Part shown: positions 47,610-64,000 of the stretch, piece by piece
How the letters are laid out: each line of letters starts with the position of its first letter
Numbering within the stretch: position 1 is the first letter of the stretch
Source: Martelella mediterranea
GTDB taxonomy: Bacteria > Pseudomonadota > Alphaproteobacteria > Rhizobiales > Rhizobiaceae
Reading direction: 5' to 3'
NCBI GenBank assembly: GCA_003001975.1
Contig: PVUG01000002.1
Coordinates: 124,001-188,000, forward strand
DNA: 64,000 nucleotides
The notes under the pieces: model-generated
What the model saw: only the letters and a program-made list of their open reading frames with translations
Told to the model about the DNA's origin: nothing
The model's database searches: none
Program-made: the position numbers and the translations under genes

Positions 47610-47721
47610 CTCTGGGCCCTTTCAAATTCTGAAGCAAACCGGGTCGGCAGGCCGCGGGAGAACACCCGATCGCGGGCATATTCCGAAGGTCAGCCATTAT
47701 TCAAGAATTTCACTAGCACCA

Positions 47722-47741
47722 ACAATGATCATTGTCGACAA
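47722..47741. promoter_or_regulatory. Overlapping palindromes, FCD-GntR operator candidate upstream of DapA-like gene
   Basis: ACAATGATCATTGT (47722-47735) is a perfect 14-bp palindrome and runs into TTGTCGACAA (47732-47741), a perfect 10-bp palindrome of the kind bound by FCD GntR regulators. ATTGTCGACA recurs before the GntR gene itself (48595-48604). Confidence 0.5.
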
Positions 47742-47795
47742 AGAAAATACAATATGACGAAACGGCTTCGCCCGATGGCCGCACCGCCAGCCAGC

Positions 47796-48518
47796 CTATA
47801 GCGAAATCGAGGAAACGCTGCGCGAATCCGCCGAAATATACGAACGGATCTGGCGCACAATCTGATCGGCATGGGCCGTTGCCAGCCGGTCGGATTCAAC
47901 CTCGTCGCGCGCAATCATCGCGCTGACAATGTGCTCATGCTCGGCCACATACTGGCGCGGCAGATCGTCGTCATAGGAGCGGTAGTAGAGGCGCAAAATC
48001 CGCCGCCCGTCATCCAGCAGGCGCCGGAACAGATCGGTGTAGTACTTGTTTCGTCCTGCCTCGGCGATGGCGATGTGAAAATCGCGATTGGTCGCGATCA
48101 TGCCCAGCACATCCCGAGTTTCCACGGCCCGCGCAAAATCGTCCTGATGACGGCGGATACCGGCGAGATCGGCTTCTGTATAATGGATCGCCGCAAGTCT
48201 TGCGGTCACGCGATACATCAATGTCAGGGCGTCGAAGAACGCTCCCAGCTGCACGAAATCGATGTTGGACACGATCGTCGTGCGGTTGGTCAGCGCCGTG
48301 ATCAGCCCTTCGGCGGACAGCCGCACAAGCGCCTCCCGGATCGGTGTACGCGACATCGAAAACCGCTCCGACAACTCCGTCTCGTCGACGGGACTGCCCG
48401 GTTCAAGCTTGAGTTCGATGATCTCGTTGCGGAGGGTTTCATAGACATATGCAACGCCACCGCCGCGCCTGACATGCAGGTTCTGCAGCGCGCCGTGCTC
48501 TGAAGAGGTCTTGACCAT
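47796..48518 (-). CDS. GntR family regulator with FCD domain
   Basis: A 240-residue regulator: winged helix (~15-85) with ELSERFSMSRTPIREALVRLSAEGLI, and an FCD helical domain (~95-225) with an Asp/His metal-site pattern (RDFHIAIAEAGRN, then EHEHIVSAM). The ATG at 48518 has AGGA upstream, so it is preferred to the GTG at 48548. It precedes the DapA-like gene with 186 bases between; shared ATTGTCGACA motifs suggest control of itself and that gene. Confidence 0.92.
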   Translation of the reverse strand: MVKTSSEHGALQNLHVRRGGGVAYVYETLRNEIIELKLEPGSPVDETELSERFSMSRTPIREALVRLSAEGLITALTNRTTIVSNIDFVQLGAFFDALTLMYRVTARLAAIHYTEADLAGIRRHQDDFARAVETRDVLGMIATNRDFHIAIAEAGRNKYYTDLFRRLLDDGRRILRLYYRSYDDDLPRQYVAEHEHIVSAMIARDEVESDRLATAHADQIVRQIRSYISADSRSVSSISL

Positions 48519-48594
48519 TGTGTCCTGTTTTTCCCGACTTTTGATCACTATGCCCGACTCCGTGCGTACAATCCATGACGTGATTCAAATTTTT

Positions 48595-48604
48595 ATTGTC
48601 GACA
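48595..48604. promoter_or_regulatory. Second ATTGTCGACA motif upstream of the FCD GntR gene
   Basis: Ten bases identical to the motif at 47731-47740, 77 bases before the regulator's ATG and in an AT-rich patch. It suggests autoregulation. Confidence 0.5.
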
Positions 48605-48741
48605 CAACTGCGTCCTGATTGATCCCGACGCCCCCGCGCACGATACCGTTTGTAACGCAGACGCGCAGAAACGCGCTGTGACGGCACGGTTGGCCGGACG
48701 TTACAAAAGCCTTGAGGGCGCATTGATTTGCCTCCACAGAA

Positions 48742-48752
48742 TAATACCAGTA
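48742..48752. promoter_or_regulatory. HutC-type operator candidate before its regulator gene
   Basis: TAATACCAGTA, identical to 49538-49548, lies 39 bases before the regulator start. The repeat around the regulator gene on both sides suggests autoregulation and control of the nanE fusion gene. Confidence 0.5.
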
Positions 48753-48790
48753 TAGATCCAGAATGTTGTTCAAACCATCTGGAACCCCAT

Positions 48791-49540
48791 ATGTCCGCGC
48801 CGGAAATCATTGAGCGAATTCGCATCGAACTGGCCGAAAGCACGACCGACATTCCGCTGTACAAGCGACTGAGAGTGGCGCTCGAGAGCGTCATTCTGGC
48901 CAATGATCTCCATGCCGGCGAGCGGCTGCCGGGCGAGCGCAGACTGGCGGATGCGCTCGGACTGTCGCGGGTCACCGTACGCAAGAGCCTGACGCTGCTT
49001 GAGGATGACGGCCTGCTCAGCCGGCGTCACGGCGCAAGAACGGAGGTTGCTTCGAAGGTCGAAAAAACGCTTTCGACCCTGACAAGCTTTTCCGAAGATA
49101 TCCGCTCGCGCGGCATGAAGCCCGGATGTATATGGCTTTCCAAGTTTGTCAGCCGCCCGTCTCCCACCGAAATGATGGCCCTTGGCATCGGCTATAGCGA
49201 GAATATTCTGCGCATGCAGCGCATCCGGACAGCCGACGAAAAGCCGATTGCGATCGAGACTGCCAGCGTTCCCGAGCGTTACCTCCCCGCGCCCGAACTG
49301 GTCGGAAACTCGCTTTACGAGGCACTTGAAGCCCGCGGCTTCCTGCCCCAGCGCGCCATCCAGCGCATGCGAACACGCACGGCCTCGCGCGAAGACAGCA
49401 AGCATCTTTCCTGCCCGTCCGCCGCACCGCTTCTGGTCACCGAACGCCGGTGTTTTCTCTCGCATGGTGAAGTCGTTGAATATTGCGAGACGCGCTATCG
49501 GGGCGATGTCTACGATTTTGTTTTTGAACTGAAGCGATAA
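48791..49540 (+). CDS. GntR/HutC family regulator with UTRA domain
   Basis: A 249-residue regulator: winged helix (~20-90) with ERLPGERRLADALGLSRVTVRKSLTLLEDDGLL, then a UTRA effector domain (~105-249) ending YRGDVYDFVFELKR. UTRA proteins often bind phosphorylated amino sugars (NagR, DasR). The next genes are a NanE fusion and a sugar importer, so an amino-sugar phosphate effector is likely. The ATG at 48791 is where homology begins; the ribosome site is weak. Confidence 0.9.
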   Translation: MSAPEIIERIRIELAESTTDIPLYKRLRVALESVILANDLHAGERLPGERRLADALGLSRVTVRKSLTLLEDDGLLSRRHGARTEVASKVEKTLSTLTSFSEDIRSRGMKPGCIWLSKFVSRPSPTEMMALGIGYSENILRMQRIRTADEKPIAIETASVPERYLPAPELVGNSLYEALEARGFLPQRAIQRMRTRTASREDSKHLSCPSAAPLLVTERRCFLSHGEVVEYCETRYRGDVYDFVFELKR

Positions 49541-49558
49541 TACCAGTAATAAACTGGT
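49538..49558. promoter_or_regulatory. HutC-type operator upstream of nanE fusion gene
   Basis: TAATACCAGTA overlaps the regulator stop and begins the perfect dyad ACCAGT-AATAA-ACTGGT (49542-49558). It sits 26 bases before a good -10 box (TATACT, 49584-49589), so binding would block the promoter of the nanE fusion gene. Confidence 0.6.
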
Positions 49559-49601
49559 TGCATTCTGGTCTCTTTTAAGCTGCTATACTTCCAAAAAAGC
49601 A

Positions 49602-51158
49602 GTGAGAGACCCGGTGCAACGAGAAATTCTGAAAAACAGCCTGATTGTATCCTGCCAGCCGGTTCCAGACGGGCCGATGGACGCGCCGTTTTTTGTCGCG
49701 GGGTTTGCCATGGCAGCCGTTGCAGCCGGCGCCACGGCTCTCAGGATTGAATCCGCCGGCTATGTGCGCGCGGTCCGTCCGAAGGTCTCCGTGCCGATCA
49801 TTGGCATCGTCAAGCGCGATCTCGACGACAGCCCGGTTCGCATCACCCCGTTTCTTTCGGACGTCGAGGACCTGGTAGCGGCCGGCGCCGATATCATCGC
49901 GATTGACGCGACCAGCCGCCCGCGCCCCGCACCTCTGTCTGATCTGGTTGCCGCGGCCCGCGCCCATGGCAAGCTCACCATGGCCGACTGCTCCTCGCTT
50001 GACGATGCCCGTCAGGCACTCGGCTGCGGCATCGATTTCGTCGGCACCACGCTTTCCGGCTATGTCGGCGGGCCGGAGCCCGAAGACCCGGATATCGGGC
50101 TGATCACCGCGATGACCGCCCTCACCCCCTATGTGATCGCCGAAGGCCGCATCCGCACGCCGGAACAGGCCGCAGAGGCAGCGCGGGCAGGAGCCTATGC
50201 CGTCACGGTCGGTTCCGCCATCACCCGCACGGAACATACGACCGCCTGGTTTCGCGATGCACTGGCTGATGCCTGTCGGGACACGACCGACCGCACGGTT
50301 CTGGCCATCGACATCGGCGGCACGAAAACCATGGCCGCGTTGATGTGCGGCGGCGAGATCCTCAACCGGACTCAGGTTCCGACTGCGGCCGACGGCAATC
50401 CCGATGACTGGCTCGCCAACATTCACACCGCCACCGAAGTCTGGGGCACCGGCTATGACGTCGTCGGCATTGCCGCAACGGGGCTCGTTGAAAACGGGTT
50501 CTGGCAGGCGCTGAACCGCGCAACCCTCAACATTCCCGGCCGCTATCCGCTCAGGGAACGGGCCGAAGCCTTGTTCGGAAAACCGGTTTTCACCGTCAAT
50601 GGTGCCCAGGCCGCGGCCTGGGGCGAACACCTGGCTACCGGCAAGGCAGCCGGATCGATTGTTTTTCTGACCATATCAACCGGCATCGGCGGCGGCGTTG
50701 TCAGCAAGGGCGCGCTGAAGACAGGCCTTGCCGGGCATTTCGGGCTGACGCGCGGCGCTTTAGGCGGGGCCACTCCGCTGGAAGACCGGGTCTCCGGCAA
50801 GTTCATTGCCGCCGAAGCCTGCCGTCTCGGACATCATGTCGACACGCCTGCGGTGTTCGAGGCCGCAAGCGCCGGCGCGTCCTGGGCCAGCGATATCGTT
50901 GAGAGCTCTGCTGCCAGGGTCGCCGCACTCTGCGCCGATATCCAGCTGATGTTCGATCCCGACGCCATCATCATCGGCGGCGGCATTGGCCTGGCCGACG
51001 GCTTTCTCAGCCGCGTTTCGGCCAATCTTGCCGCACTGCCGGCGCGCCTGAAACCCGATGTCACCGCAGCAGCATGCGGCGCCGATGCCGGCCTCGTCGG
51101 GGTCGCGGACCTAGCGCTCACCGCTTTGACGGGGACAAAGGCATTACCTGACGAATGA
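49602..51158 (+). CDS. NanE (ManNAc-6-P epimerase) fused to a degenerate ROK kinase domain
   Basis: Residues 1-225 are an N-acetylmannosamine-6-phosphate 2-epimerase barrel with the catalytic Lys71 (GIVKRD) and Glu181 (IAEGR) present. Residues ~230-518 are a NanK-like ROK domain that keeps DIGGTKT and STGIGGGVV for ATP. The base Asp of NDAQAAAW is Gly334 (NGAQAAAW), and the zinc site keeps only His379; the three or four cysteines are gone. The frame is intact. The start is GTG at 49602, or GTG at 49614. Kinase activity is doubtful. Confidence 0.88.
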   Translation: MRDPVQREILKNSLIVSCQPVPDGPMDAPFFVAGFAMAAVAAGATALRIESAGYVRAVRPKVSVPIIGIVKRDLDDSPVRITPFLSDVEDLVAAGADIIAIDATSRPRPAPLSDLVAAARAHGKLTMADCSSLDDARQALGCGIDFVGTTLSGYVGGPEPEDPDIGLITAMTALTPYVIAEGRIRTPEQAAEAARAGAYAVTVGSAITRTEHTTAWFRDALADACRDTTDRTVLAIDIGGTKTMAALMCGGEILNRTQVPTAADGNPDDWLANIHTATEVWGTGYDVVGIAATGLVENGFWQALNRATLNIPGRYPLRERAEALFGKPVFTVNGAQAAAWGEHLATGKAAGSIVFLTISTGIGGGVVSKGALKTGLAGHFGLTRGALGGATPLEDRVSGKFIAAEACRLGHHVDTPAVFEAASAGASWASDIVESSAARVAALCADIQLMFDPDAIIIGGGIGLADGFLSRVSANLAALPARLKPDVTAAACGADAGLVGVADLALTALTGTKALPDE

Positions 51159-51194
51159 AAATGAAACAAACCAAACACAAGAAGGGAACTCGAC

Positions 51195-52517
51195 ATGATC
51201 AGGAAAACAGCATTCGCGGCCCTTGCCGCGCTTCTGGCGGGCACCGCTATGCCGGGCCTTGCCAACGCCGCCGTCACGGTGCTCGGTTGGCCGGGCGGCT
51301 CCGAAGAAGCCGCCTTGCGGGCCGCCACGGAGATCTACAACGAGACCGCCAGCGCGGACGACAAGGTCGAGCTGATCTTCTTCAGTCGCGACGGCTTTTA
51401 TGACAAGCTTCAGGCAGATCTGGCCGCCGGTTCCGATGCCTTCGACATCAATCTGATCGCGACCTACTCGATCGGCCGCTATGCGCCCTATATGGAGCCC
51501 ATCGATCTTGGCGAAGCCGCCGAAAGCGTTTTCGGCAAGGCGGTGCTGGAAACCATGCAGTACGAGGGCAAGCAGTATGGCGTGCCGACAGACCTCTCCC
51601 TGCATTTCATGTATTACCGCACGGACCTGATGGACGATCTGCTCGGCGACGCGGATGCCAGGGCTGAATACGCGAAGATCGCGGAGGAATATCTCGGCAA
51701 GCCGATGGAGCCGAAGCCGGCCGATGAGTGGACCTGGGACGACTGGGCGGCAACCGCGCTTCACTTTACCAAGTCCGTCAACCGGGCAAGCCCGGTGCGT
51801 TACGGCACGGTTCTGCAGATGAAGAACCTGCTGTTCAACATGATGGTCTTCCAGTCGCTGCCGCGCGCCTATGGCGCCGATTGGCGTGACGGAAACGGCA
51901 ATATCACCATCGATTCCGAAGGCTACCGGAAAGGACTGGAACTCTACAAGACGCTCTACGATGCCGGGGCAACGCCGAAGGATTCGCTCTCATATGAATA
52001 TGCGGAAACCAATGCCGCCTTTGCCTCGGGCCAGGTTGCGACAGCCCTTCAGTGGAACGCTGCCGCAAGCGAACTGACCGATCCCGAAAAGCCCCCCGCA
52101 GTTGCCGATGTAACCGGCGTTGTGGCGCCGCCGGCCGGGCCCGATGGCCGCGCCGATCATATTCACGGCCTTGGCCTCGGCCTCAACAAGAACGCGCCCA
52201 ACAAGGACGGTGCGGTCAAGTTCCTGCAATGGCTGGCAACGGAAGACGCCGCCCTGCTTTACGCCGAAAATGGCGGATCGCCGGCGCTTATGCCCGATGT
52301 CGTGGCAAAAATCGCGGAGGACCGTCCGGATCTGGTGGACCTTGGCAATTTTGCCAGCCAGTATGGCTATGTCATGGATGGCGGCACCTCGGCCAATGCA
52401 TTGACGATTTACGAGGTGCAGGCCCGCGAATTCACCGGTTACTGGTCCGGACAGAAAAGCCTTGACGAGACGCTGGCCAACACCGGGGCCGAAATGCAGG
52501 AACTGCTGAAGCAATAG
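51195..52517 (+). CDS. Carbohydrate ABC substrate-binding protein (family 1), amino-sugar locus
   Basis: A 440-residue periplasmic binding protein with a signal peptide (FAALAALLAGTAMPGLANAAV). The body is of MalE/UgpB type, with VLGWPGGSEEAALRAATEIYNE and GSDAFDINLIATYSIG. AAGGGAA precedes the ATG, 36 bases after the nanE fusion. Judging by the neighbours it binds an amino sugar or sialic acid-type ligand; sequence alone does not show the ligand. Confidence 0.92.
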   Translation: MIRKTAFAALAALLAGTAMPGLANAAVTVLGWPGGSEEAALRAATEIYNETASADDKVELIFFSRDGFYDKLQADLAAGSDAFDINLIATYSIGRYAPYMEPIDLGEAAESVFGKAVLETMQYEGKQYGVPTDLSLHFMYYRTDLMDDLLGDADARAEYAKIAEEYLGKPMEPKPADEWTWDDWAATALHFTKSVNRASPVRYGTVLQMKNLLFNMMVFQSLPRAYGADWRDGNGNITIDSEGYRKGLELYKTLYDAGATPKDSLSYEYAETNAAFASGQVATALQWNAAASELTDPEKPPAVADVTGVVAPPAGPDGRADHIHGLGLGLNKNAPNKDGAVKFLQWLATEDAALLYAENGGSPALMPDVVAKIAEDRPDLVDLGNFASQYGYVMDGGTSANALTIYEVQAREFTGYWSGQKSLDETLANTGAEMQELLKQ

Positions 52518-52640
52518 GCGGAAAGACCGTGGCGACAACACGCCACAACAGCGCCCGGCGGCAGGCTGCATCCGGGTGCTGCCCAAACACGGAGGTTTCC
52601 GGCAAGACCGGTCACATCATGAACATCGGCGGCTGACAGT

Positions 52641-53513
52641 ATGCAACTTGTAAAACCGGGCGAAGGGCGGCTGTTCCTGTCGCCGCTCGTTCTCTTCCTG
52701 CTGCTCTTTCTGGGTTTTCCGGCGATCGTCAACCTGATCTACTCGGTTTCGACAGTCTCCTTCGAAACCCTGCGCGCACCGGAAATCAGCGGTTTCGGCA
52801 ATTATCTCGATGTGCTGAACGACCGCTACTTCTGGCAGGCGTCTTGGTTTTCATTGCGTTTCGGCATCGTCACCGCTGTCGCGGAATGCCTGATCGGCTT
52901 GTTTCTGGCGATTTTCCTCAATCCGTTGCTTGGCAAACGGCCGTATCTGATGGCGCCGCTGATGCTGCCGTTGATGGTCGCCCCGGCCATGGTCGGTCTC
53001 ATGTACCGCCTGGTGCTGCATGAATTCGCGGGCCCGATCCCCTATTATCTGTGGATGTGGTTCGGCGACAGCCCTGCCTTTCTCGATGCCGACAACGCCT
53101 TCAGGACATTGGTCGTGATCGAAACGCTGCAGTGGACGCCGTTCGCGTTTCTGCTGTGTCATACCGCCTATTCCGCCATTCCGGCGGATGTGCGCGAAGC
53201 CGCAGCACTTGACGGTGCACGCGGATGGACAATGCTGACCAAAATCGAGCTTCCACTGATCAGGCCGACGCTGGTGATCGCGTTTTTCATCCGCTTCATC
53301 GACGGGTTCCGCGTTTTCGACAATATCTACGCCCTGACGGGTGCTGGCGCCGGCGGCTCCACGACATCGCTGTCGATCTACATCTATCAGGCCTTTTTCA
53401 AGCAGGGCGCCATCGGCAAGGCGGTTGCCGCATCGGTCGTTCTGTTCCTCGCATCGCTTATCGTGCTTTATGCGCTGACAGCGCTTGGCAGCCGCAGAAA
53501 GGACCGGTCATGA
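52641..53513 (+). CDS. Sugar ABC permease (MalF-type), amino-sugar locus
   Basis: A 290-residue permease with six helices (FLSPLVLFLLLFLGFPAIVNLIYS at the start) and the EAA loop REAAALDGARGWTMLTKIELPLIRP. It follows the binding-protein gene after 123 bases with no terminator seen and overlaps the next permease gene by 4 bases. Confidence 0.93.
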   Translation: MQLVKPGEGRLFLSPLVLFLLLFLGFPAIVNLIYSVSTVSFETLRAPEISGFGNYLDVLNDRYFWQASWFSLRFGIVTAVAECLIGLFLAIFLNPLLGKRPYLMAPLMLPLMVAPAMVGLMYRLVLHEFAGPIPYYLWMWFGDSPAFLDADNAFRTLVVIETLQWTPFAFLLCHTAYSAIPADVREAAALDGARGWTMLTKIELPLIRPTLVIAFFIRFIDGFRVFDNIYALTGAGAGGSTTSLSIYIYQAFFKQGAIGKAVAASVVLFLASLIVLYALTALGSRRKDRS

Positions 53514-54331
53514 TGAAGACATTGCGCTGGGTCGTGTTTGCCATCGCCGCGATTGCGATGAATTTTCCGGTGATCGTGACGTTGATCACCTCGTTCAAGA
53601 GCGCCCGTGAGATCAGCTCGAACGCCGGTCTGTGGATCAACAGCCCAACCCTGTCGAACTATCTGTCGGTTCTGACCGACACGACCCGGTTCAACATCTG
53701 GCTCTATCTCTTCAACAGCACGGTTGCCGCACTGATCGGAACGCTGCTGGCGATGGCCCTGACCTTCCCGGCCGCCTACGCCATCGCTCGATCAAGGACC
53801 GGGCGGAAAGTCCTGTTTCCGGTGGTCGTCAACCTGCGCGCCGTGCCGCTCATCATCTTCGCGATCCCGCTTTATATGATGTATCAGTGGCTGGGCTTGC
53901 TCGACACGCGGGTCGGCCTCGGTCTCATCTTCACCATCGTCAACATTCCCCTGGCGCTGGTCATTCTCGTCAATGCAATATCCGATGTTCCGATCGAGCT
54001 GGATGAAGCCGCCAAGGTCGACGGGGCCGCAACGTCGCAGATATTGCGACAGGTGATCTGGCCGGTTGTCCGGCCCGCCATGCTGACGACCTTCATCTTC
54101 GGCTTCATTACTGCCTGGAACGAATTCCTGTTCGGATTGATGCTGACCACCAGCAAGGCAGTACCGATGACGGTCGGGGCTTCGTTTTTCTTCGCCGCCA
54201 GCGGCGGTGGCGTCAACTGGGGAACGGCGTCTGCGGTGATGATCATCGGCGCCCTGCCGCCCGCCGTCATCGGCCTGTTGATGTACAAACAGATTTTCGG
54301 CTCCATGACCGCCGGCGCCGTCAAGGGTTAG
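53510..54331 (+). CDS. Sugar ABC permease (MalG-type), amino-sugar locus
   Basis: A 273-residue permease with six helices, EAA loop DEAAKVDGAATSQILRQVIWPVVRP and the MalG-type end FGSMTAGAVKG. Translation starts at one of two adjacent ATGs after AAAGGA, overlapping the previous stop. No ATPase gene follows: the operon ends here and the next ATPase gene is on the opposite strand. Confidence 0.93.
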   Translation: MMKTLRWVVFAIAAIAMNFPVIVTLITSFKSAREISSNAGLWINSPTLSNYLSVLTDTTRFNIWLYLFNSTVAALIGTLLAMALTFPAAYAIARSRTGRKVLFPVVVNLRAVPLIIFAIPLYMMYQWLGLLDTRVGLGLIFTIVNIPLALVILVNAISDVPIELDEAAKVDGAATSQILRQVIWPVVRPAMLTTFIFGFITAWNEFLFGLMLTTSKAVPMTVGASFFFAASGGGVNWGTASAVMIIGALPPAVIGLLMYKQIFGSMTAGAVKG

Positions 54332-54428: not shown

Positions 54429-55508
54429 CTAAAGCCGCGCGCCCGTTTTCTCTTCAAAGAAGGATGCCTTGGTGACATCGACGGTGACCGAGACGGGCTG
54501 ACCCGTTTCACAATGCTGCTCCTGATGCAGCCGATGCGAAATATTGATTCCGTCGAAATCCGACCACGCCAGAATGTCGCTTCCCATGGGTTCCACAAGC
54601 GAGATCGTGCCGTTCCACGCTGCCTTGTCCTGTTCGGCAAGATGAATGTGTTCCGGGCGCAGGCCGAGCGTTGCCTTCTGGCCGTCAACGACCTTGCCGG
54701 CAAAGGGATATGCGCTGACATCGAGGCTGAAAGAGCCGGATTTGAACACCAGCCCGTCATTTTCCGCGGCAAACGCACCGGCAATCTTGTTCATCGCCGG
54801 CGAGCCGAGGAAGGTGCCGACAAATTCATTGGCCGGTTTGTTGTAGACATTCAGCGGCGTGTCGAGCTGCTGGATGATGCCGTCCTTCATCACCGCGATC
54901 CGGTCTGCAAGCGTCAGCGCCTCGATCTGGTCATGGGTCACATAGATCATGGTCGAGCCGAGCGCCTTGTGCAGCTTCTTGATTTCAAGCCGCAGTTCGG
55001 CACGCAGCTTGGCATCGAGGTTGGAAAGCGGCTCGTCGAACAGGAAGATGTCGGCATCGCGCACAAGTGCGCGGCCAATGGCGACGCGCTGACGCTGACC
55101 GCCGGAGAGCGCAGACGGCTTGCGGTCGAGCAGCTGCGTGATCTGGAGAAGTTCGGCTGCCCATTTCACCTTCTTGTCGATTTCCGCGCGGGGAACACCG
55201 GCAATCTTCAGCCCGAACGACATGTTCCGTTCGACGCTCATGGTCGGATAAAGCGCATAGGACTGGAACACCATGCCGATGCCGCGGTCCTTCGGATCGA
55301 TCCAGGTCACATCCTTGTCGTTGAAGTGGATCGACCCGCCGCTGACGTCGGTCAGCCCGCCGATTGCATTCAGCAGGGTCGACTTGCCACAGCCGGACGG
55401 GCCGAGCAGGACCAGAAATTCGCCGTCCCTGATCTGAAGGTCGAGGCTTTTGACGACATGCACATTCCCGTAGCGAATGTCGAGATTTTCAATGGCTACA
55501 GAACTCAT
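54429..55508 (-). CDS. Carbohydrate ABC ATPase (UgpC/MalK-type)
   Basis: A 359-residue ATPase: Walker A LLGPSGCGKSTLLNAI, signature LSGGQRQRVAIGRAL, Walker B IFLFDEPLSNLD, switch His in YVTHDQIEAL, then a TOBE-type regulatory domain from ~240. It is the last gene of the leftward importer operon, 4 bases after its permease. As the only sugar-type ATPase here, it may also serve the amino-sugar permeases, as MsmK-type shared ATPases do. Confidence 0.95.
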   Translation of the reverse strand: MSSVAIENLDIRYGNVHVVKSLDLQIRDGEFLVLLGPSGCGKSTLLNAIGGLTDVSGGSIHFNDKDVTWIDPKDRGIGMVFQSYALYPTMSVERNMSFGLKIAGVPRAEIDKKVKWAAELLQITQLLDRKPSALSGGQRQRVAIGRALVRDADIFLFDEPLSNLDAKLRAELRLEIKKLHKALGSTMIYVTHDQIEALTLADRIAVMKDGIIQQLDTPLNVYNKPANEFVGTFLGSPAMNKIAGAFAAENDGLVFKSGSFSLDVSAYPFAGKVVDGQKATLGLRPEHIHLAEQDKAAWNGTISLVEPMGSDILAWSDFDGINISHRLHQEQHCETGQPVSVTVDVTKASFFEEKTGARL

Positions 55509-55512
55509 GGTG

Positions 55513-56400
55513 TTATCCTTTCACGGCGCCGGAAGCGATGCCGCGCACGAACCAGCGGCCGGAAACCAGATAGACGACAAGCGGGACCAGTGAGGTCAGA
55601 ATGGTTGCCGCCATATTGACGTTGTAGGCGCGCTCGCCCGTGGTCGTGTTGACGATATTGTTGAGCTGGACGGTCATCGGCAGGTTGTCGCGCCCGGCAA
55701 AGACCAGACCGAGCAGGAAGTCGTTCCAGATCGCGGTGACCTGCATGATGACGGCAACGATGGTGATCGGAACCGACATCGGCAGGATGATCGAAAAGAA
55801 GATCTTCCAGAAACCGGCGCCATCGATGCGGGCGGCTTTGAACAGCTCGACCGGCAGGCCCATGTAATAATTGCGAAACAGCAGCGTCATCACCGGCATG
55901 CCGAAGATGATGTGGGTCAGCACGATGCCGGGCAGCGAGCCGTAGATGCCGGCCTGCGCATAAAAACGCACCAGCGGATAGATGAACACCTGATAGGGAA
56001 TGAACGAGCCCATCAGCAGGCAGGCAAACAGCACATTCGCCCCCTTCACCCGCCAGAACGACAGGGCATAGCCGTTGACTGCGCCAAACAGGATCGACAG
56101 TACCACGCTCGGGATCAAAATCTTGACCGAGTTGAAAAAGCCGACCTGAAGACCGGTGCAATCGAGACCGGTACAGGCGCTGGTCCATGCCTTGATCCAG
56201 GCGTCGAGCGAAAAGTTCTGCGGCAGCGCGAAGATCAGGCCGAGGCGGATTTCGTCCATGCTTTTGAACGAGGTGACCAGCATCACGTAAAGCGGCAGGA
56301 GAAAGAACAGCGCCACGAAAAACAGGAAGCCGTAGACGCCGAAACGGCCCCAGACGTCCTGCCAGCTGCGCGGACGCTTGACAGCGGATGACTGCGTCAT
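55513..56400 (-). CDS. Carbohydrate ABC permease (MalG/AglG-type)
   Basis: A 295-residue permease with helices from residue ~18 and a periplasmic loop that holds TSACTGLDCTGLQ, as in the AglG/GtsC group. The EAA loop is ELFKAARIDGAGFWKIFFSIILPMSVP, and it ends FVRGIASGAVKG. It overlaps the partner permease gene by 4 bases. Confidence 0.93.
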   Translation of the reverse strand: MTQSSAVKRPRSWQDVWGRFGVYGFLFFVALFFLLPLYVMLVTSFKSMDEIRLGLIFALPQNFSLDAWIKAWTSACTGLDCTGLQVGFFNSVKILIPSVVLSILFGAVNGYALSFWRVKGANVLFACLLMGSFIPYQVFIYPLVRFYAQAGIYGSLPGIVLTHIIFGMPVMTLLFRNYYMGLPVELFKAARIDGAGFWKIFFSIILPMSVPITIVAVIMQVTAIWNDFLLGLVFAGRDNLPMTVQLNNIVNTTTGERAYNVNMAATILTSLVPLVVYLVSGRWFVRGIASGAVKG

Positions 56401-57296
56401 GACGCCCTCCCGTTCTTGCGGAAATACTGGGAATATAAAACCGGCACCATGATCAAGAGAACGGTGATCAGCAGCACGGTCGAGGCGGCGGTGGCAAGGC
56501 CGATATTGGCGCGCTCGAACAGGTTATCCATGATGAACTTGGCCGGCACTTCACTTGCCGTTCCGGGCCCGCCATTGGTCATCGCCACGACCACGTCGTA
56601 CATCTTGACGATCGAGATCGACAGCAGCACCAGCGAGGTGATGATCATCGGACGCAGCATCGGCAGAATGATCGAAAGATACACGCGCCACGGCGGAATG
56701 CCGTCAATGCGGGTCGCCGACCAGATCTGGGTATCGATACCGCGCAGCCCCGCCAGAATCAGCGCCATGACCAGCCCGGAACCGTGCCAGACGGTTGCCA
56801 GAATGATGGCATAGAGCACGGTATCCGGATTGACCGTCCAGTCGAGCACGAAATTCGGGAACCCGAGATCGCGCATGGTCGCCTGAATGCCGAGATCGGG
56901 ATTGAGGATCCACTGCCAGATCAGGCCCGCCACCACGAAGGACATGGCATAGGGGTAGAGAAAAACCGTTCTGAACAGGCTTTCGGCGCGCACATTCTGG
57001 TCGATGAAGATCGCCAGCAGCGTGCCGAGCACGAAACAGATCAGCAGGAAGAAGAAAGCGATGATCGCCAGATTTTCCAGCGACGTGATCCAGCGCGAGG
57101 TTTCGAAAAGCCTCGTATATTGGGCAAAGCCGACAAAGTCGTCTTTCGGTAGAAGCCTCGAGCTGGAAAACGACAGCCGGACGGACCAGAGCATCGTACC
57201 CAGATAGGCAAAGATGACCACGATGGCCATCGGCAGCAAGGCGATATAGGCAAGCAGATTTCGCCTGATGTGCCGGGTGAAGGCGGCGGCGTGCAA
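56397..57296 (-). CDS. Carbohydrate ABC permease (MalF/AglF-type)
   Basis: A 299-residue permease with six helices and the EAA loop SATRIDGIPPWRVYLSIILPMLRP. The start is a TTG at 57296 with an excellent GGGAGG 5 bases before. It lies 69 bases after the binding-protein gene; no hairpin is evident between. Confidence 0.93.
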   Translation of the reverse strand: MHAAAFTRHIRRNLLAYIALLPMAIVVIFAYLGTMLWSVRLSFSSSRLLPKDDFVGFAQYTRLFETSRWITSLENLAIIAFFFLLICFVLGTLLAIFIDQNVRAESLFRTVFLYPYAMSFVVAGLIWQWILNPDLGIQATMRDLGFPNFVLDWTVNPDTVLYAIILATVWHGSGLVMALILAGLRGIDTQIWSATRIDGIPPWRVYLSIILPMLRPMIITSLVLLSISIVKMYDVVVAMTNGGPGTASEVPAKFIMDNLFERANIGLATAASTVLLITVLLIMVPVLYSQYFRKNGRAS

Positions 57297-57365
57297 CGGG
57301 ACCTCCCTTGAAACGGGAAGGGAACACGACGCCCCCTTCCCGCCTTCTTGTTTTTGATCGGTGAA

Positions 57366-58610
57366 TTAGCCGTTGAGAGCCTGGTCGAAACGATCAACCG
57401 CTTCATCGACCGACATGTCGGTGTTCCACAGTTCGGTCACGACATCCTGGACGGAGCCATAGATGTACTCGGCCATCATCTGCGAAGCATCGGGCGCCTG
57501 GCGGCTCGGGTCCGACATGATTTCGAGACCGAGCTGGGCGCAGGCATCGAGCTTGGTTTCATCAACGTCGGAGCGAATCGGGATCGAGCCCTTGAGGTTG
57601 TTGAACGCGACCTGGGTTTCCGGATCGGTCATGACCTCGACCAGCTTGTGCTGGGCTTCGACCTGTTCGGCATCATCGGTTTTCGGGAAGACGAAGACAT
57701 CGCCGCCGAGAACATAGGGGCTGTCGGGACGAAGACCCGGCAGGCAACCGTAATCGGTTCCGATTTCCTTGCCGGCCTGCTTGAACTCGCCCTTGGCCCA
57801 GTCACCCATGACCTGGAAACCGGCCTCGTCATTGATCAGCATGGCGGTGGTGTCGTTCCAGTTGCGGCCCGGAGAGGCAGCATCGACATAGGGTTTCAGC
57901 GCGATGAAGGTTTCGATGACTTCGCGGAATTCCGGCGAATGGATCGCGTCTTCATCCTTGTCGGCATAAACCGCTTCCCAGAGTTCGCCGCCGCCGACAT
58001 TGGTCAGCACGGCCGAGAACAGCGAGTTTTCCTGCCAGCGCTGACCACCGAGCGCCAGCGGCGTGATGCCGGCTTCCTGAAGCTTGTCAAGATCGGCGAA
58101 GAATTCATCGACGCTTTCCGGCGGGTTTTCAATACCGGCCTGTTCCAGCGCGTCGATCGAGTACCAGAACCACAGCGGCATATGGATATTGACCGGAGCG
58201 GCATAGTATTTGCCATCGATCTTGACGGCGTTGATGATCGGCTCGGGCAGGATTTCATCCCAGTTGTGTTCCTGCGCCACGGCATCGATATCGTTCAGCA
58301 GGCCTTCTTCAACGATCTCGTGATACTGCTGCGAGGTGTTGAACAGCGCGGCCGTCGACGGATCGCCGCCGATGATACGGTTGATCGCGGCACTGCGTGC
58401 GGCCGAACCGCCGGCCACGGCGCTGTCCTGCCAGTTGCCGCCCTGAGCGTTATAGGCATCGGCGAAAACGCCGATTGCAGCGGATTCGCCGCCGGATGTC
58501 CACCAGTGAATAACCTCGGCGTCAAGCGGCTCCTGCGCGCTGGCAGCACCAGCCATTGCCACGGTCAGCGCGAGGGCTGATGCGGTCACCGCATTCTTCA
58601 GAATAAACAT
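57366..58610 (-). CDS. Carbohydrate ABC substrate-binding protein (family 1), next to GH94 enzyme
   Basis: A 414-residue periplasmic binding protein: signal peptide to ~25 (AMAGAASAQE), then AEVIHWWTSGGESAAIGVFADAYNAQGG and NIHMPLWFWYS, close to GtsA/AglE-type glucose or glucoside binders. GGGGAGG precedes the ATG. It is divergent from lacI and the GH94 gene across a 230-base region with a LacI-type operator, so its ligand is probably the GH94 substrate, a beta-glucosyl aldonate. Confidence 0.93.
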   Translation of the reverse strand: MFILKNAVTASALALTVAMAGAASAQEPLDAEVIHWWTSGGESAAIGVFADAYNAQGGNWQDSAVAGGSAARSAAINRIIGGDPSTAALFNTSQQYHEIVEEGLLNDIDAVAQEHNWDEILPEPIINAVKIDGKYYAAPVNIHMPLWFWYSIDALEQAGIENPPESVDEFFADLDKLQEAGITPLALGGQRWQENSLFSAVLTNVGGGELWEAVYADKDEDAIHSPEFREVIETFIALKPYVDAASPGRNWNDTTAMLINDEAGFQVMGDWAKGEFKQAGKEIGTDYGCLPGLRPDSPYVLGGDVFVFPKTDDAEQVEAQHKLVEVMTDPETQVAFNNLKGSIPIRSDVDETKLDACAQLGLEIMSDPSRQAPDASQMMAEYIYGSVQDVVTELWNTDMSVDEAVDRFDQALNG

Positions 58611-58637
58611 GTGTCCTCCCCGAAAGGGTCGTCTGAG

Positions 58638-58651
58638 GGACCGAACGGTCC
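58638..58651. promoter_or_regulatory. Dyad GGACCG-AA-CGGTCC upstream of the importer operon
   Basis: Perfect 6-bp arms, 28 bases before the binding-protein ATG. Either an operator or a leader hairpin close to the ribosome site. Confidence 0.35.
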
Positions 58652-58678
58652 GGTCAAAAGTGATATGGACCCCAAAAG

Positions 58679-58692
58679 TGGGATCGGTTCCA
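58679..58692. promoter_or_regulatory. LacI-type operator candidate in divergent region
   Basis: TGGGATCGGTTCCA is an imperfect palindrome (10 of 14 positions symmetrical) around a central CG, the LacI-family form. It is preceded by two direct copies of CAAAAGTG (58655 and 58673), 18 bases apart. A second site of the same form (TGGAAACGGTTCCG, 58909-58922) lies inside the regulator gene. Confidence 0.5.
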
Positions 58693-58840
58693 ATTACAAC
58701 GACAGGGACTTGATTTTGTCAATGGCAACTGCAAAAAAATATCAAACCAATCGCAAGTGACGTTGCTTTTGCGTGAAAGCCATTGAATAATAATGCGATA
58801 TGGCGTTCATGCCGAAAACAACATGGCGGGGAGTTGAAAC

Positions 58841-59845
58841 ATGGCTACGGTAAAGGACGTCGCAAAACTGGCGGGAGTCGGGTCCGGGACTGTGTCCCGG
58901 TACATTTCTGGAAACGGTTCCGTTTCCGCAAAAGCCGCCGAAAAGATCGAACGCGCCATCCAGCAGCTCAACTACCGGCCCAACAGCATGGCGCGGTCTC
59001 TGTCCTCGCGGCGCTCGGACCTGATCGGCGTATGGGTGCCCTCGCTCGAAGGGCCGTATTATCACATGATCATCCGCGCCGTTGAGCAGGAGCTGCGCCT
59101 TTATAACAAGCACATGATCCTCGCCAATGCCGAGGATGCCCAGTCGGACGCCGATCGCCGTGCCCATTTCGACTATCTGGTCAACCGCGACTGCGACGGC
59201 ATCCTGATGTCCTGTTCGCTGCAGGGCACGTTCGAACTGGCACGCACGTCCGAACATTTTGCAAACCTCGTCCTGCTCAACCATCAGGCCGACGCGCTGG
59301 CCGGCCGGTGCTTCTTCATCGATCACGAACTGGGCGGGCGGCTGGCCGCGCGCCATCTTGCCGAACTTGGCCACGAGAAGATTGCGGTGATCACCGGACG
59401 TCTTTCCGCGCAGGACGCCCGCCAGCGCCATGGCGGCTTTCTGGACGAAATGGGCAAGCTCGGACACTCCATTCCCGAAAATTATGTTGTCGAGGGCGCT
59501 TTCAGCTATGCCGCCGCCGAACGGCTGGTCAGCGCGTTCCTCGACATGAAACTCGATTTTTCGGCCGTGTTCTGCGGAAACGACAAGGTGGCCATGCTGC
59601 TGCTGTCGGAACTTTACAATCGCGGCATTTCGGTTCCGCGCGACGTCTCGGTTCTCGGCTATGACGATGTCGATTTCGCCGCCTATACGGCCCCGCCGCT
59701 CAGCACCATCCACGCCCCGATCGAGGAGATGGCCCGCTCTGCCTGCCGGCAACTTCTCAACCTCACCTATGACATGGACCTTCCGTTCCAGGAGCGGTTC
59801 GAACCGTCGCTTTGTGTGCGACGTTCGACCGCCGCGCTGGGCTAA
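58841..59845 (+). CDS. LacI family transcriptional regulator
   Basis: A 334-residue repressor: helix-turn-helix ATVKDVAKLAGVGSGTVSRYISGNGSVSAKAAEKIERA-like at the start, hinge NYRPNSMARSL (~48-58), and a periplasmic-binding-type effector domain with GNDKVAMLLLSELYNRGISVPRDVSVLGYDD. It lies between the divergent importer and the GH94 gene, 35 bases before the latter, and so likely controls both. The effector is probably the imported glycosyl aldonate or a product. Confidence 0.94.
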   Translation: MATVKDVAKLAGVGSGTVSRYISGNGSVSAKAAEKIERAIQQLNYRPNSMARSLSSRRSDLIGVWVPSLEGPYYHMIIRAVEQELRLYNKHMILANAEDAQSDADRRAHFDYLVNRDCDGILMSCSLQGTFELARTSEHFANLVLLNHQADALAGRCFFIDHELGGRLAARHLAELGHEKIAVITGRLSAQDARQRHGGFLDEMGKLGHSIPENYVVEGAFSYAAAERLVSAFLDMKLDFSAVFCGNDKVAMLLLSELYNRGISVPRDVSVLGYDDVDFAAYTAPPLSTIHAPIEEMARSACRQLLNLTYDMDLPFQERFEPSLCVRRSTAALG

Positions 59846-59880
59846 GGGCCAAACGCAAACACCAACGCAATGAGAGCAGG

Positions 59881-62241
59881 ATGACTTCCTTCATCGACAG
59901 CGGACAGCGCTTCCGCCTGACCGACCCGACACTGGCGCCCAATGCGGCAAGCTATCTCTGGAACCGCAAGATGATGATCCAGATGAGCGCCCGCGGCTAT
60001 GCGGTCAGCCAGTATATGGATCCTGAACCGCGCAAATATGCCCATGTTCCGACCATTGCCGCGCAGACCTTCATGCAGCCGGAACAGGATTATTTTCCGC
60101 ACCACCCCGGCCGCTTCTTCTATATCCGCGACAATGAGACCGGCGATCTGTTTTCCGCACCCTATGAGCCGGTGCGCGCGAAACTCGACCGCTTCAGCTT
60201 CGAGCCCGGCGTCTCCGATATTCGCTGGGTGATCGAAAAGGACGGCGTGCGCGTTGAACTCCGCCTCGACCTGCCGGTCGAGGATGTCGCCGAGATCTGG
60301 TCGGTGCGGATCACCAATCTGACGGACACGAAAAAGTCCCTCTCCTTCGTTCCGTTCTTCCCGGTCGGCTATTCCTCATGGATGAACCGCGGCGGCCATT
60401 TCGATGCGGCGCTGAACACCATCGTCTGCACCAGCGTGACGCCCTATCAGAAGGTCGAGCAGTATTTCAAAAACAAGGGCCTGAAGGATATCACCTTCTT
60501 CGCCGCCGACCGGAAACCCGATTATTTCGAGGTCGCGCAGGTGGCCTTCGAGGGGGAAGGCGGATTGCATAACCCGTCCGCCCTGCAGGATGGCGGACAC
60601 CTTGGCGGCGGCGACGCCAGCTATGAAAATCCGGCCGGCATCATGCAGTGGGACCTTTCTCTAGGCGCCGCCGCATCGGAGGATTTCCGCTTCCTGTTCG
60701 GCCCGGCCTTCGACAAGGCCGAAATCGCGGCCCTGACGGAAAAATACATCAAGGGCGCCCTCGAGCCGGTGCGGCAGGATTACGACAACTATATCCGCTC
60801 CGGTCTCGGCAGTCTGGAACTGCATTCGCCTGACGAAGACCTCGATCATTTCGTCAATTACTGGCTGCCCCGTCAGGTGTTTTATCACGGCGACACCCAT
60901 CGGCTGACCACCGACCCGCAGACCCGCAACTATCTGCAGGACGGGCTTGGCATGATCTTCATCGCGCCGGAGAAGACGCGCACCGCGATCCTGAAGACCG
61001 CCAGCCAGCAATTCTTCTCCGGCAAGGTGCCGGACGGTATTCTGCTGCGGCCGGACACCGAACTGAAATACATCAACCAGATCCCGCATACCGACCATGC
61101 CGTCTGGCTGGTGATCGCCACCAAGGCCTATATCGACGAGACCGGCGACCGCGCGATCCTCGAAGAAAAGGTCGACTGGTCCGACAGCGAAGAGGAAGCC
61201 ACGCTCTACGAGCATGTGACGCGGGCGCTGCGTTTTCTCGCCGGTGAAGTCGACGACCGCAACCTACCCTATATCGCCCAGGGCGACTGGTGCGATCCGA
61301 TGAACATGGTCGGTTACAAGGGCAAGGGCGTTTCCGGCTGGCTGGCCGAAGCCTCAAGCTATGCGATGACCACGTGGGCGGAGATCTGCCGCACGGAAAA
61401 CGACAGCGAAACCGCCGACTGGCTGGCGCAGGAGGCCGGCAAGCTCAACGACAGCATCAATCGCTATCTCTGGGACGGCGCGTGGTATGCCCGCGGCATT
61501 ACCGATGACGGTGTGGCCTTCGGCGTTCAGGCCGACAAGGAAGGCCGGATTTACCTGAACACCCAGAGCTGGGCGTTTCTCGCCGGCGCTGCCGATGATG
61601 CTCAAAAGGCCAGCATGCTGCAGGCCATCGACGACCAGCTCGACACGCCCTATGGCGCGACCATGTTTGCGCCGGCCTATACGGCGATGCGCGACGATGT
61701 CGGCCGGGTCACGCAGAAATGGCCCGGCAACGGCGAAAACGGCGCGGTTTACAACCACGCCGCCGCCTTTTATGCGGCATCGCTCTATCATATCGGCGAA
61801 AAGGAACGCGGCTTCGCCGTTCTCTCCAAGATGCTGACGCGGCCGGACGAACAGGACATCAAGACCCGCGGGCAGTTGCCGCTTTACGTCCCGAATTATT
61901 ATCGCGGCGCCTATTATCAGTACCCGCGCACAGCCGGCCGCTCCAGCAACCTGTTCAACACCGGAACCGCCTCCTGGTACTACCGGCTGGTGATAGAACA
62001 GCTTTGCGGTCTGCGCGGCGATCGCGAGGGCGTGATCATCGCGCCGCAACCGCCGGCCGACTGGGAGACCTTCCGCTTCACCCGCATCTTCCGGGGCGCG
62101 ACCTTCGAGGTCCGTGTCGACAGGGATGCAGAAGCAGAAACCCCGACCGTGACGGTCGATAGCAAGCAGTTGGAGAACAACAGGATCGATCGGATCGAAG
62201 CCGGCAAGCGCTACGACGTTCTGGTCCGTCTTCCGAAATAG
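59881..62241 (+). CDS. GH94 phosphorylase, probable cellobionic acid phosphorylase
   Basis: A 786-residue cytoplasmic GH94 enzyme: N-terminal beta-sandwich (~1-290), helical barrel (~320-700). The general acid position is Asp472 in GDWCDPMNMVG, where cellobiose phosphorylases have DWND. Arg609 and Lys613 (GRVTQKWPG) are, from memory of the Saccharophagus cellobionic acid phosphorylase structure, the residues holding the aldonate carboxylate; the numbers coincide. Predicted reaction: cellobionate plus phosphate gives glucose 1-phosphate plus gluconate. The ATG at 59881 is preceded by AGAGCAGG. Often misannotated NdvB, which is far larger. Confidence 0.88.
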   Translation: MTSFIDSGQRFRLTDPTLAPNAASYLWNRKMMIQMSARGYAVSQYMDPEPRKYAHVPTIAAQTFMQPEQDYFPHHPGRFFYIRDNETGDLFSAPYEPVRAKLDRFSFEPGVSDIRWVIEKDGVRVELRLDLPVEDVAEIWSVRITNLTDTKKSLSFVPFFPVGYSSWMNRGGHFDAALNTIVCTSVTPYQKVEQYFKNKGLKDITFFAADRKPDYFEVAQVAFEGEGGLHNPSALQDGGHLGGGDASYENPAGIMQWDLSLGAAASEDFRFLFGPAFDKAEIAALTEKYIKGALEPVRQDYDNYIRSGLGSLELHSPDEDLDHFVNYWLPRQVFYHGDTHRLTTDPQTRNYLQDGLGMIFIAPEKTRTAILKTASQQFFSGKVPDGILLRPDTELKYINQIPHTDHAVWLVIATKAYIDETGDRAILEEKVDWSDSEEEATLYEHVTRALRFLAGEVDDRNLPYIAQGDWCDPMNMVGYKGKGVSGWLAEASSYAMTTWAEICRTENDSETADWLAQEAGKLNDSINRYLWDGAWYARGITDDGVAFGVQADKEGRIYLNTQSWAFLAGAADDAQKASMLQAIDDQLDTPYGATMFAPAYTAMRDDVGRVTQKWPGNGENGAVYNHAAAFYAASLYHIGEKERGFAVLSKMLTRPDEQDIKTRGQLPLYVPNYYRGAYYQYPRTAGRSSNLFNTGTASWYYRLVIEQLCGLRGDREGVIIAPQPPADWETFRFTRIFRGATFEVRVDRDAEAETPTVTVDSKQLENNRIDRIEAGKRYDVLVRLPK

Positions 62242-62391: not shown

Positions 62392-64000
62392 TCACGCCCC
62401 GACAGGCAGGAAACCATCGGCGAACGCTGGGGCGGGTTTCGGGCGCCCAAAGAAATATCCCTGCAATGTATCGGCATTGTAGGATTGGCAGAGCGCGCCC
62501 TGTTCCTCGGTTTCGATGCCTTCGGCCGTGACATTGAGGTCGAGGCTGTGAGCCAGCATGATCAGCGTTCTCAAAAGCCGGCAGTCATCTTCGTTTCCCG
62601 GCGTGTTCGCGATGAAGGTCCGGTCGAGTTTGACCGTATCTGCCGGCAGCTGCCGGAGGTAGGAGAGCGATGAATAACCGGTTCCGAAATCGTCGATGGC
62701 GATGCCGACACCGTGATTGCGCAGCTCCAGCAACTGCCGTGCGGCATGGTCGAAATCGGCAATGAGGTCGCTTTCGGTAACCTCGAGCTCCATCGATGTC
62801 GGCGGCACCCCGGTTTCGGTGATATCCTTGAGAAGGTGCGCGGCAAAGTCCTTCTGCCGCAAGGTGGCCGCGCAGATGTTGAACGACATCCGGAACTCCG
62901 CCCCCACGCGCCCGTCCCTGAACCATGCAGCCGTCTGCAAGCACGCGGCCCGGCGCCCCCAAAGGTCGATTGTCGTCATCATGCCGGTCTCCCGCGCAAC
63001 CGGCAGAAATGCCCCCGGCTCCAGAAGACCGTGATCGGGATGGTGCCAGCGCACCAACGCTTCGGCGCCCTGAAGTGTCAGCAGGGCGGCACTCATCAGC
63101 GGCTGGAAAAACAGTTCGAGCTGTTCGAGAAAACCGGGGCTTTGCATGTCGCGCGCCAGTTCCGCGCGCAGTTGCGCCTGTTTCTGCATATCGGCAGAAA
63201 AGCACCGGAAGGTGTTCTTGCCGCTCTTCTTGGCAATCTCCAGAGCCACTCCAGCAGCCTTCAGCAGGTCTTCGGCAGAGGAGTCGACCGTCGACAGCAG
63301 CGCTATGCCGCTTGAAATGTTGACCATGATGGAATTGGGGCCAAGTGTGAGCGGCACACTGAAAGCCTGCCGGAGCTTTCCGGTGAAATCCGTCAGCCTA
63401 TCGGCCGACCAGTTGCCGGGCGCGATGATGGCGAATTCATCGCCGCCGAGACGGCACAGAACATGCGAAGGCGCGATCTGGGTTGAAAGCCGCGCCGCCG
63501 TCTGCACCAGCAGTTCGTCGCCCGCGTGGTGGCCCATGCTGTCATTGACGAGTTTGAAATTGTCGATATCGATCAGAAACAGTGCGATATCTTCAAAATC
63601 GCCTTCGCGGCACCGCTCCGCCTCACTGGCCAGAACCTGTTCAAAACGATACCGGTTGCTGATGCCGGTCAGCGCGTCTGTTTCCGCCATGCGCTGCAGC
63701 CGGGCGCGGCTTTCCCGCAGGTTTTCCTCCAGCGTGTGGCGAACGCGGCTGTGCATCAGCGCCCGGCGCAGGCGCTTGTCGCTGATATCGCTTTTGAGGA
63801 CGAAATCCTGCGCGCCGGCCTCGATGCAACGGCGTTCCTCTTCCTCGCTGGCCATTCCCGTCAGTATGATGACGGCAACGCTTTGCTCCGGATCGGCGTT
63901 GATTGTCTTCAAAACATCAATGCCATCCATGTCGGGAAGGCGATAGTCGAGCAGGACCACATCGAAACTGTCCTGCCGGAGGCATTCAAACGCCTCTGCC
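62392..64000 (-). CDS. Response regulator with GGDEF and EAL domains (5' end cut by window edge)
   Basis: At least 536 residues; the frame continues past the right edge without a start. The visible order is a REC domain with the phospho-acceptor Asp in VVLLDYRLPDMDG, a GGDEF domain with RLGGDEFAII, and an EAL domain with GAEALVRWHHP, ELEVTES and DDFGTGYSSLSYL. Both output motifs look intact, so cyclic-di-GMP synthesis and hydrolysis are both possible, switched by phosphorylation. The partner kinase is probably outside the window. Confidence 0.93.
   Translation of the reverse strand, partial: AEAFECLRQDSFDVVLLDYRLPDMDGIDVLKTINADPEQSVAVIILTGMASEEEERRCIEAGAQDFVLKSDISDKRLRRALMHSRVRHTLEENLRESRARLQRMAETDALTGISNRYRFEQVLASEAERCREGDFEDIALFLIDIDNFKLVNDSMGHHAGDELLVQTAARLSTQIAPSHVLCRLGGDEFAIIAPGNWSADRLTDFTGKLRQAFSVPLTLGPNSIMVNISSGIALLSTVDSSAEDLLKAAGVALEIAKKSGKNTFRCFSADMQKQAQLRAELARDMQSPGFLEQLELFFQPLMSAALLTLQGAEALVRWHHPDHGLLEPGAFLPVARETGMMTTIDLWGRRAACLQTAAWFRDGRVGAEFRMSFNICAATLRQKDFAAHLLKDITETGVPPTSMELEVTESDLIADFDHAARQLLELRNHGVGIAIDDFGTGYSSLSYLRQLPADTVKLDRTFIANTPGNEDDCRLLRTLIMLAHSLDLNVTAEGIETEEQGALCQSYNADTLQGYFFGRPKPAPAFADGFLPVGA

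Follow-up and report, generated by a model that had tools for sequence, protein, structure and literature searches.

Oxidative cellulose breakdown releases cellobionate, and the question raised by the locus described here is whether Martelella, which lives in soil and in the sea, has a dedicated system for the uptake and use of this compound. The window that was analysed, a stretch of 64,000 nucleotides from Martelella mediterranea (GenBank assembly GCA_003001975.1, contig PVUG01000002.1, positions 124,001 to 188,000), contains six full-length open frames at 54429-62241. Profile and open reading frame analysis identified these frames as a four-gene ATP-binding cassette (ABC) importer on the minus strand, divergent from the genes for a LacI-family regulator and a GH94 enzyme. 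A sequence-only reading that preceded this study had proposed the same layout, and all six genes were recovered where it had placed them. A LacI-regulated catabolic cassette for cellobionate is the best explanation of this locus, with a probability of about 0.78 in our own estimate.

The GH94 protein contains the catalytic and supersandwich domains of its family (PF17167, 249.9 bits; PF06165, 84.8 bits). It matched SdCBAP (structure 4ZLE, which is entered as cellobionic acid phosphorylase Sde_0906 in the accessible part of PMC8950772) over its full length at 1019 bits and 55% identity, and every other GH94 structure listed scored at most 200 bits. Moreover, Gln190, Asp472 (of the WCDP motif), Arg609 and Lys613 carry identical numbers in the window enzyme and 4ZLE when the ATG at 59881 (786 aa), which was preferred over the mechanical TTG start at 59812, is taken as the start. 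These four residues were invariant in all 87 rows of a cellobionic acid phosphorylase (CBAP) alignment composed of 80 loci, six same-genus relatives and the window, in which some rows were from the same species; the 80 loci were the best of 461 relatives, a selection that favours close kin. Arg609, Lys613 and Gln190 are reported to be the carboxylate-binding residues at subsite +1 in the structure paper of 2015. The numbers of Asp472, Arg609 and Lys613 had been given in the sequence-only reading, and they agreed with the 4ZLE alignment, as did Gln190.

In a tree of 42 rows, the window enzyme and SdCBAP shared a branch with 100/100 support, and the cellobiose phosphorylase 3QDE, the chitobiose phosphorylase 1V7V and the NdvB domains lay outside it. 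This tree took 32 of the 87 rows, left out the CBAPs of Xanthomonas and Neurospora, and had a long chitobiose phosphorylase row joined from two pieces. A grouping with cellobiose or chitobiose phosphorylases had been named beforehand as the outcome that would speak against a role in cellobionate use; the enzyme grouped with SdCBAP instead. The identification as a cellobiose phosphorylase was rejected by the tree, and identity to 3QDE was only 24%. The enzyme falls in the CBAP clade, and phosphorolysis of cellobionate is predicted from its sequence. Inside this clade, the window stood in a weakly supported half (83/75) with all tree-included cassette loci except Massilia L064. Enzymes 88-90% identical to that of the window belonged to three named Martelella species (90% for M. 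radicis). All 256 matches in plasmid records were below 60% identity, with the best 40 of the 256 at 24-28%, and no CBAP-clade protein was found among the matches listed.

The linkage of this enzyme to the importer was conserved in other genomes. The importer is of the CUT1 sugar type, with a binding protein, two permeases and a MalK-type ATPase in one cluster, and the protein encoded at 58841-59845 has the LacI helix-turn-helix and the sugar-binding domain of LacI-family regulators. An ABC importer was present near the CBAP gene in 20 of the 80 loci, 19 of which shared the gene order and orientation of the window. These 19 cassette loci came from Martelella (3), Pleomorphomonas (8, two of them metagenome-assembled genomes), a Proteobacteria metagenome-assembled genome (1), Palleronia (1), Vibrio (5) and Marinomonas (1); 17 were complete, and L008 and L009 end at contig ends. 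In the twentieth locus, Massilia L064 (358-12349), a more distant importer (52% for the binding protein) in a different arrangement and a GPH symporter both lie near the CBAP gene. Among 13 Martelella genomes, the binding protein was detected at 93% identity or more in six, and CBAP in the same six and in G012. Furthermore, among 397 genomes of the order, the binding protein (cut-off E<=1e-150) was found in 12 and CBAP in the same 12, the two being neighbours by coordinates in each; one of these 12 CBAPs (G428) is partial.

The cassette loci also share a DNA element. A CG-centred palindrome, TGGRAYCGRTYCCA, was found in the gap between the divergent operons of all 19 cassette loci and the window, where the pattern matches only at 58679-58692, which is also its sole place in this genome. 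Across the 80 CBAP loci, the palindrome occurred in 20, namely the 19 cassette loci and the Alginatibacterium locus L024, where genes for LacI, CBAP and a gluconokinase occur without an ABC importer of this kind. It was absent from the other 60, including L018, L020 and the Massilia locus L064, hence 19 of the 20 ABC-type loci carry it. In the 13 Martelella genomes, it was confined to the six cassette carriers, once in five of them and twice in G003, and a reversed-pattern control gave 0 matches. The palindrome is predicted to be an operator bound by LacI in the promoter region that it controls, and this conserved operator is usable as a sequence marker for the trait. A promoter scan of 58500-58900 returned a single weak site, which was not used.

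The additional copy in G003, within L160 7164-8400 on contig C1, is followed by a piece of a GH94 gene (residues 1-69, 70% identity) and by a gluconokinase frame that is intact, and this arrangement is likely the relict of a CBAP-gluconokinase unit. Such a fragment beside a gluconokinase lends some colour to the idea that the window cassette is itself decayed or unexpressed. However, all six of its frames are full length and 86-99% identical to copies in five other Martelella (six genes in L005, L006, L025 and L136, three in G011), so this explanation deserves almost no credence.

The products expected from the enzyme bear on the identity of its substrate. With calls made at 40% identity or more, a gluconokinase gene was located within 6 kb in 39 of the 80 CBAP loci and 13 of the 20 ABC-type loci, and a phosphogluconate dehydratase (Edd) gene within 3 kb in 11 of the 80 and 9 of the 20. 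Reference proteins from L024 and L018 passed the cut-offs of TIGR01313 (gluconokinase) and TIGR01196 (phosphogluconate dehydratase). In Pleomorphomonas the gene order was LacI, CBAP, gluconokinase, Edd. Outside the cassette, the window genome encodes one Edd and two gluconokinases that exceed their cut-offs; one of the gluconokinases adjoins a GntP permease. CBAPs accept glucuronate as well as gluconate, and several carrier genera are marine or plant-associated, so the physiological substrate could be a different beta-1,4-glucosyl acid, for example glucosyl-glucuronate derived from a polysaccharide of acidic type. Nevertheless, the gluconokinase and Edd genes in the clusters of relatives support gluconate as the product, and hence cellobionate rather than a glucuronate-containing compound, which makes this alternative quite improbable.

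Several observations weigh against a cassette dedicated to cellobionate. The sole characterised CBAP of the tree, SdCBAP, sits in the half of the clade (86/71) opposite to that of the window. No gluconokinase was called nearby in the three Martelella loci among the 80, Palleronia L015, Vibrio L019 and L028, or Massilia L064. A GPH symporter adjoins CBAP in 47 of the 80 loci, 46 of which have no ABC importer, which indicates that CBAP does not need this importer; 14 loci had neither, some of them ending at contig ends. Martelella G012 has a CBAP of 69% identity without such a cassette. Moreover, the 12 co-occurrences among the 397 genomes span two genera only and are not 12 independent events. 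The neighbours of the G012 gene (L135 8077-10443) are an RpiR-type regulator, a flavoprotein and other ABC genes. At Aliagarivorans L018 (4400-14834), the LacI, CBAP, gluconokinase and Edd genes are preceded by genes for a TAXI-type TRAP transporter and a GFO/IDH oxidoreductase, and L020 has a TRAP permease too; Vibrio L022 and L023 have, next to the importer, an oxidoreductase with 56% identity to that of Aliagarivorans. TRAP transport in Aliagarivorans is possibly a third uptake solution for CBAP loci.

The remaining points on this side concern the ligand of the importer. The model of the binding protein had a mean predicted local distance difference test (pLDDT) score of 85, and its closest structures are glucose-binding proteins; indeed, the three nearest solved proteins, P. 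putida GBP (ppGBP), SAR11_0769 and Oant_3817, are all described as binding glucose. Twelve glucose contacts of ppGBP are given in the part of PMC7927077 that was accessible. The window protein retains eight of these twelve, including Gly68 in an uncertain column, and Gln90, Lys92, Asn301 and His379 are not kept, so it does not have the complete ppGBP-type set as that part gives it. Oant_3817 is also without Lys92, as read from the printed alignment. Asn301 and His379 are present in all three solved glucose binders and absent from the 19 aligned CBAP-linked proteins (19 of the 21 available rows, L014 and L025 being left out). An ordinary glucose importer was rejected only in part by this comparison of contact residues. 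The changes at Lys92, Asn301 and His379 were considered as a signature of specificity and withdrawn, since Martelella paralogues share them: among the 12 complete of 14 paralogues (L131 is partial and L134 was left out), positions 92 and 379 are lost in all 12, and position 301 holds Gly in all but one, which has Ser. These losses are common to paralogues and do not prove a new ligand. Twenty-seven positions were special to the CBAP-linked binding proteins, and Arg370 was the only invariant basic one: all 19 CBAP-linked rows have it, and all 12 paralogues have Asn in its place. It closes a block of the model with a mean pLDDT of 83 and borders the block 371-380, whose mean is 59. Arg370 is a candidate carboxylate contact only.

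The wider family of the binding protein points in a similar direction. A phylum scan of 398 genomes yielded ten other genomes with binding proteins at 44-55% identity, and in the six of these ten that were examined, neither the operator nor a match to the window CBAP was found in the stretch around the binding protein. Among ten frames chosen from these six regions, the binding-protein gene was seen to be immediately preceded by a GH1 gene in L196 and L197, a coverage under which the other four may have one as well. Binding-protein relatives without CBAP at 54-55% identity thus adjoin GH1 genes, which makes a broader beta-glucoside ligand possible. The importer family may be one of beta-glucoside importers, with one branch tied to CBAP. 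Together with the glucose-binding structures and the eight retained contacts, these relatives favour an importer for glucose, cellobiose or various beta-glucosides, with CBAP merely co-regulated and cellobionate at most one of its ligands. This account is nonetheless unlikely, given that the operator and the co-occurrence tie the importer to CBAP, that Asn301 and His379 of the glucose binders are absent from the CBAP-linked proteins, and that the genome has a separate cellobiose phosphorylase locus. The latter, on contig C12 (L163 6287-8728), encodes a second single-domain GH94 protein that scored 1158 bits to 3QDE and groups there, and its neighbours include a GH1 gene and an ABC importer of the oligopeptide type. 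Its presence suggests that the window cassette is not the cellobiose route, and the genome seems to keep the cellobiose and cellobionate routes apart.

The preferred interpretation, cellobionate uptake followed by phosphorolysis, had been put forward by the sequence-only reading. It is now supported by the conserved linkage, the common operator, the co-occurrence and the gluconate-pathway neighbours in relatives, from which we infer the importer specificity. In the proposed mechanism, the binding protein would capture cellobionate in the periplasm, the four-gene ABC transporter would bring it into the cell, and the cytoplasmic GH94 enzyme would phosphorolyse it to glucose 1-phosphate and gluconate. 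A gluconokinase whose gene lies at another place in the genome (next to CBAP in relatives) would then phosphorylate the gluconate, which would enter the Entner-Doudoroff route via Edd. LacI may repress both divergent operons from the single palindromic operator, to be released by cellobionate or one of its products. What was observed directly are the genes, the CBAP clade with its residues, the conservation of cassette and palindrome, and the co-occurrence; importer ligand, inducer, repression and flux are what we infer for this locus.

The source of the substrate is a related matter. No AA10 lytic polysaccharide monooxygenase was found in any of the 13 Martelella genomes, in a search that did not extend to cellulases, cellobiose dehydrogenase or pyrroloquinoline quinone (PQQ) dehydrogenases. 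The lack of this enzyme implies that cellobionate would be scavenged or made in another way. If the interpretation is correct, a dedicated importer in bacteria without AA10 would indicate that they probably scavenge oxidised cellulose that other organisms have produced, and the binding protein is a possible cellobionate sensor.

Features of the putative cellobionate cassette (positions refer to the window)
Feature	Position	Strand	Evidence or remark
ABC importer ATPase, MalK/UgpC type, 359 aa	54429..55508	-	ABC_tran, OB_MalK, TOBE_2; NF008653 UgpC subfamily 436.9 bits (cut-off 432)
ABC permease B, MalG type, 295 aa	55513..56400	-	BPD_transp_1; 4-base overlap with permease A gene
ABC permease A, MalF type, 299 aa	56397..57296	-	BPD_transp_1
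Periplasmic solute-binding protein, 414 aa, predicted cellobionate receptor	57366..58610	-	SBP_bac_8, SBP_bac_1
Predicted LacI-type operator TGGGATCGGTTCCA, between the divergent operons	58679..58692	.	Conserved palindrome
LacI-family regulator, 334 aa	58841..59845	+	LacI HTH, Peripla_BP_3
GH94 protein, predicted cellobionic acid phosphorylase (CBAP), 786 aa	59881..62241	+	35 bases after LacI; 4ZLE match, residues, tree

The cassette has neighbours on both sides. The stretch 46677-54331, which adjoins the importer, holds a fusion of NanE with a ROK kinase (an epimerase-kinase of the N-acetylmannosamine type), ABC importer genes of its own, regulator-like genes and a lyase-like (NanA-type) gene; the lyase was judged by eye from its translation. 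This second sugar cluster looks like one for amino-sugar or sialic acid use. At 62392-63960, convergent with the GH94 gene, a frame that reaches the window end encodes a response regulator with GGDEF and EAL domains, which are those of cyclic di-GMP turnover.

With respect to known systems, the enzyme type is known, and the matching importer and its DNA switch appear to be undescribed. The sequence-only reading had been aware of no described ABC importer for cellobionate, and the literature search, which covered mainly titles and abstract openings and had most of the subscription literature outside its reach, likewise found none in bacteria. A new specificity within a known architecture is predicted. 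It is fairly probable that the cassette, a six-gene unit spread across alpha- and gammaproteobacteria, contains an ABC importer that is devoted to cellobionate, has a LacI regulator and an operator of its own and is the first of its kind to be recognised in bacteria, and that no fewer than three unrelated modes of uptake (ABC, GPH symporter and, in Aliagarivorans, TRAP) have gathered around one enzyme family. SdCBAP resembles the window enzyme in its full-length GH94 match and in the same Gln190, Asp472, Arg609 and Lys613; however, it belongs to the other half of the CBAP tree, whose loci mostly have a GPH symporter and not this ABC importer. ppGBP of Pseudomonas putida CSV86 (5DVF) is among the nearest folds of the binding protein, with 36% identity and template modelling (TM) scores of 0.81 and 0.86, whereas the window protein does not share its contacts Gln90, Lys92, Asn301 and His379. 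In Neurospora crassa, according to the accessible part of PMC4537572, CBT-1 and CAP import cellobionate and then phosphorolyse it inside the cell to glucose 1-phosphate and gluconate; CBT-1 is given there as a major facilitator superfamily (MFS) transporter, in contrast to the predicted importer of the window, which is an ATP-driven, binding-protein-dependent ABC system. Finally, the cuaABC-cbpA system of Ruminiclostridium cellulolyticum pairs an ABC importer with a GH94 phosphorylase, as the window does, but in the portion of PMC6720390 that was available its substrates are cellobiose and cellodextrins and its enzyme is a cellobiose phosphorylase.

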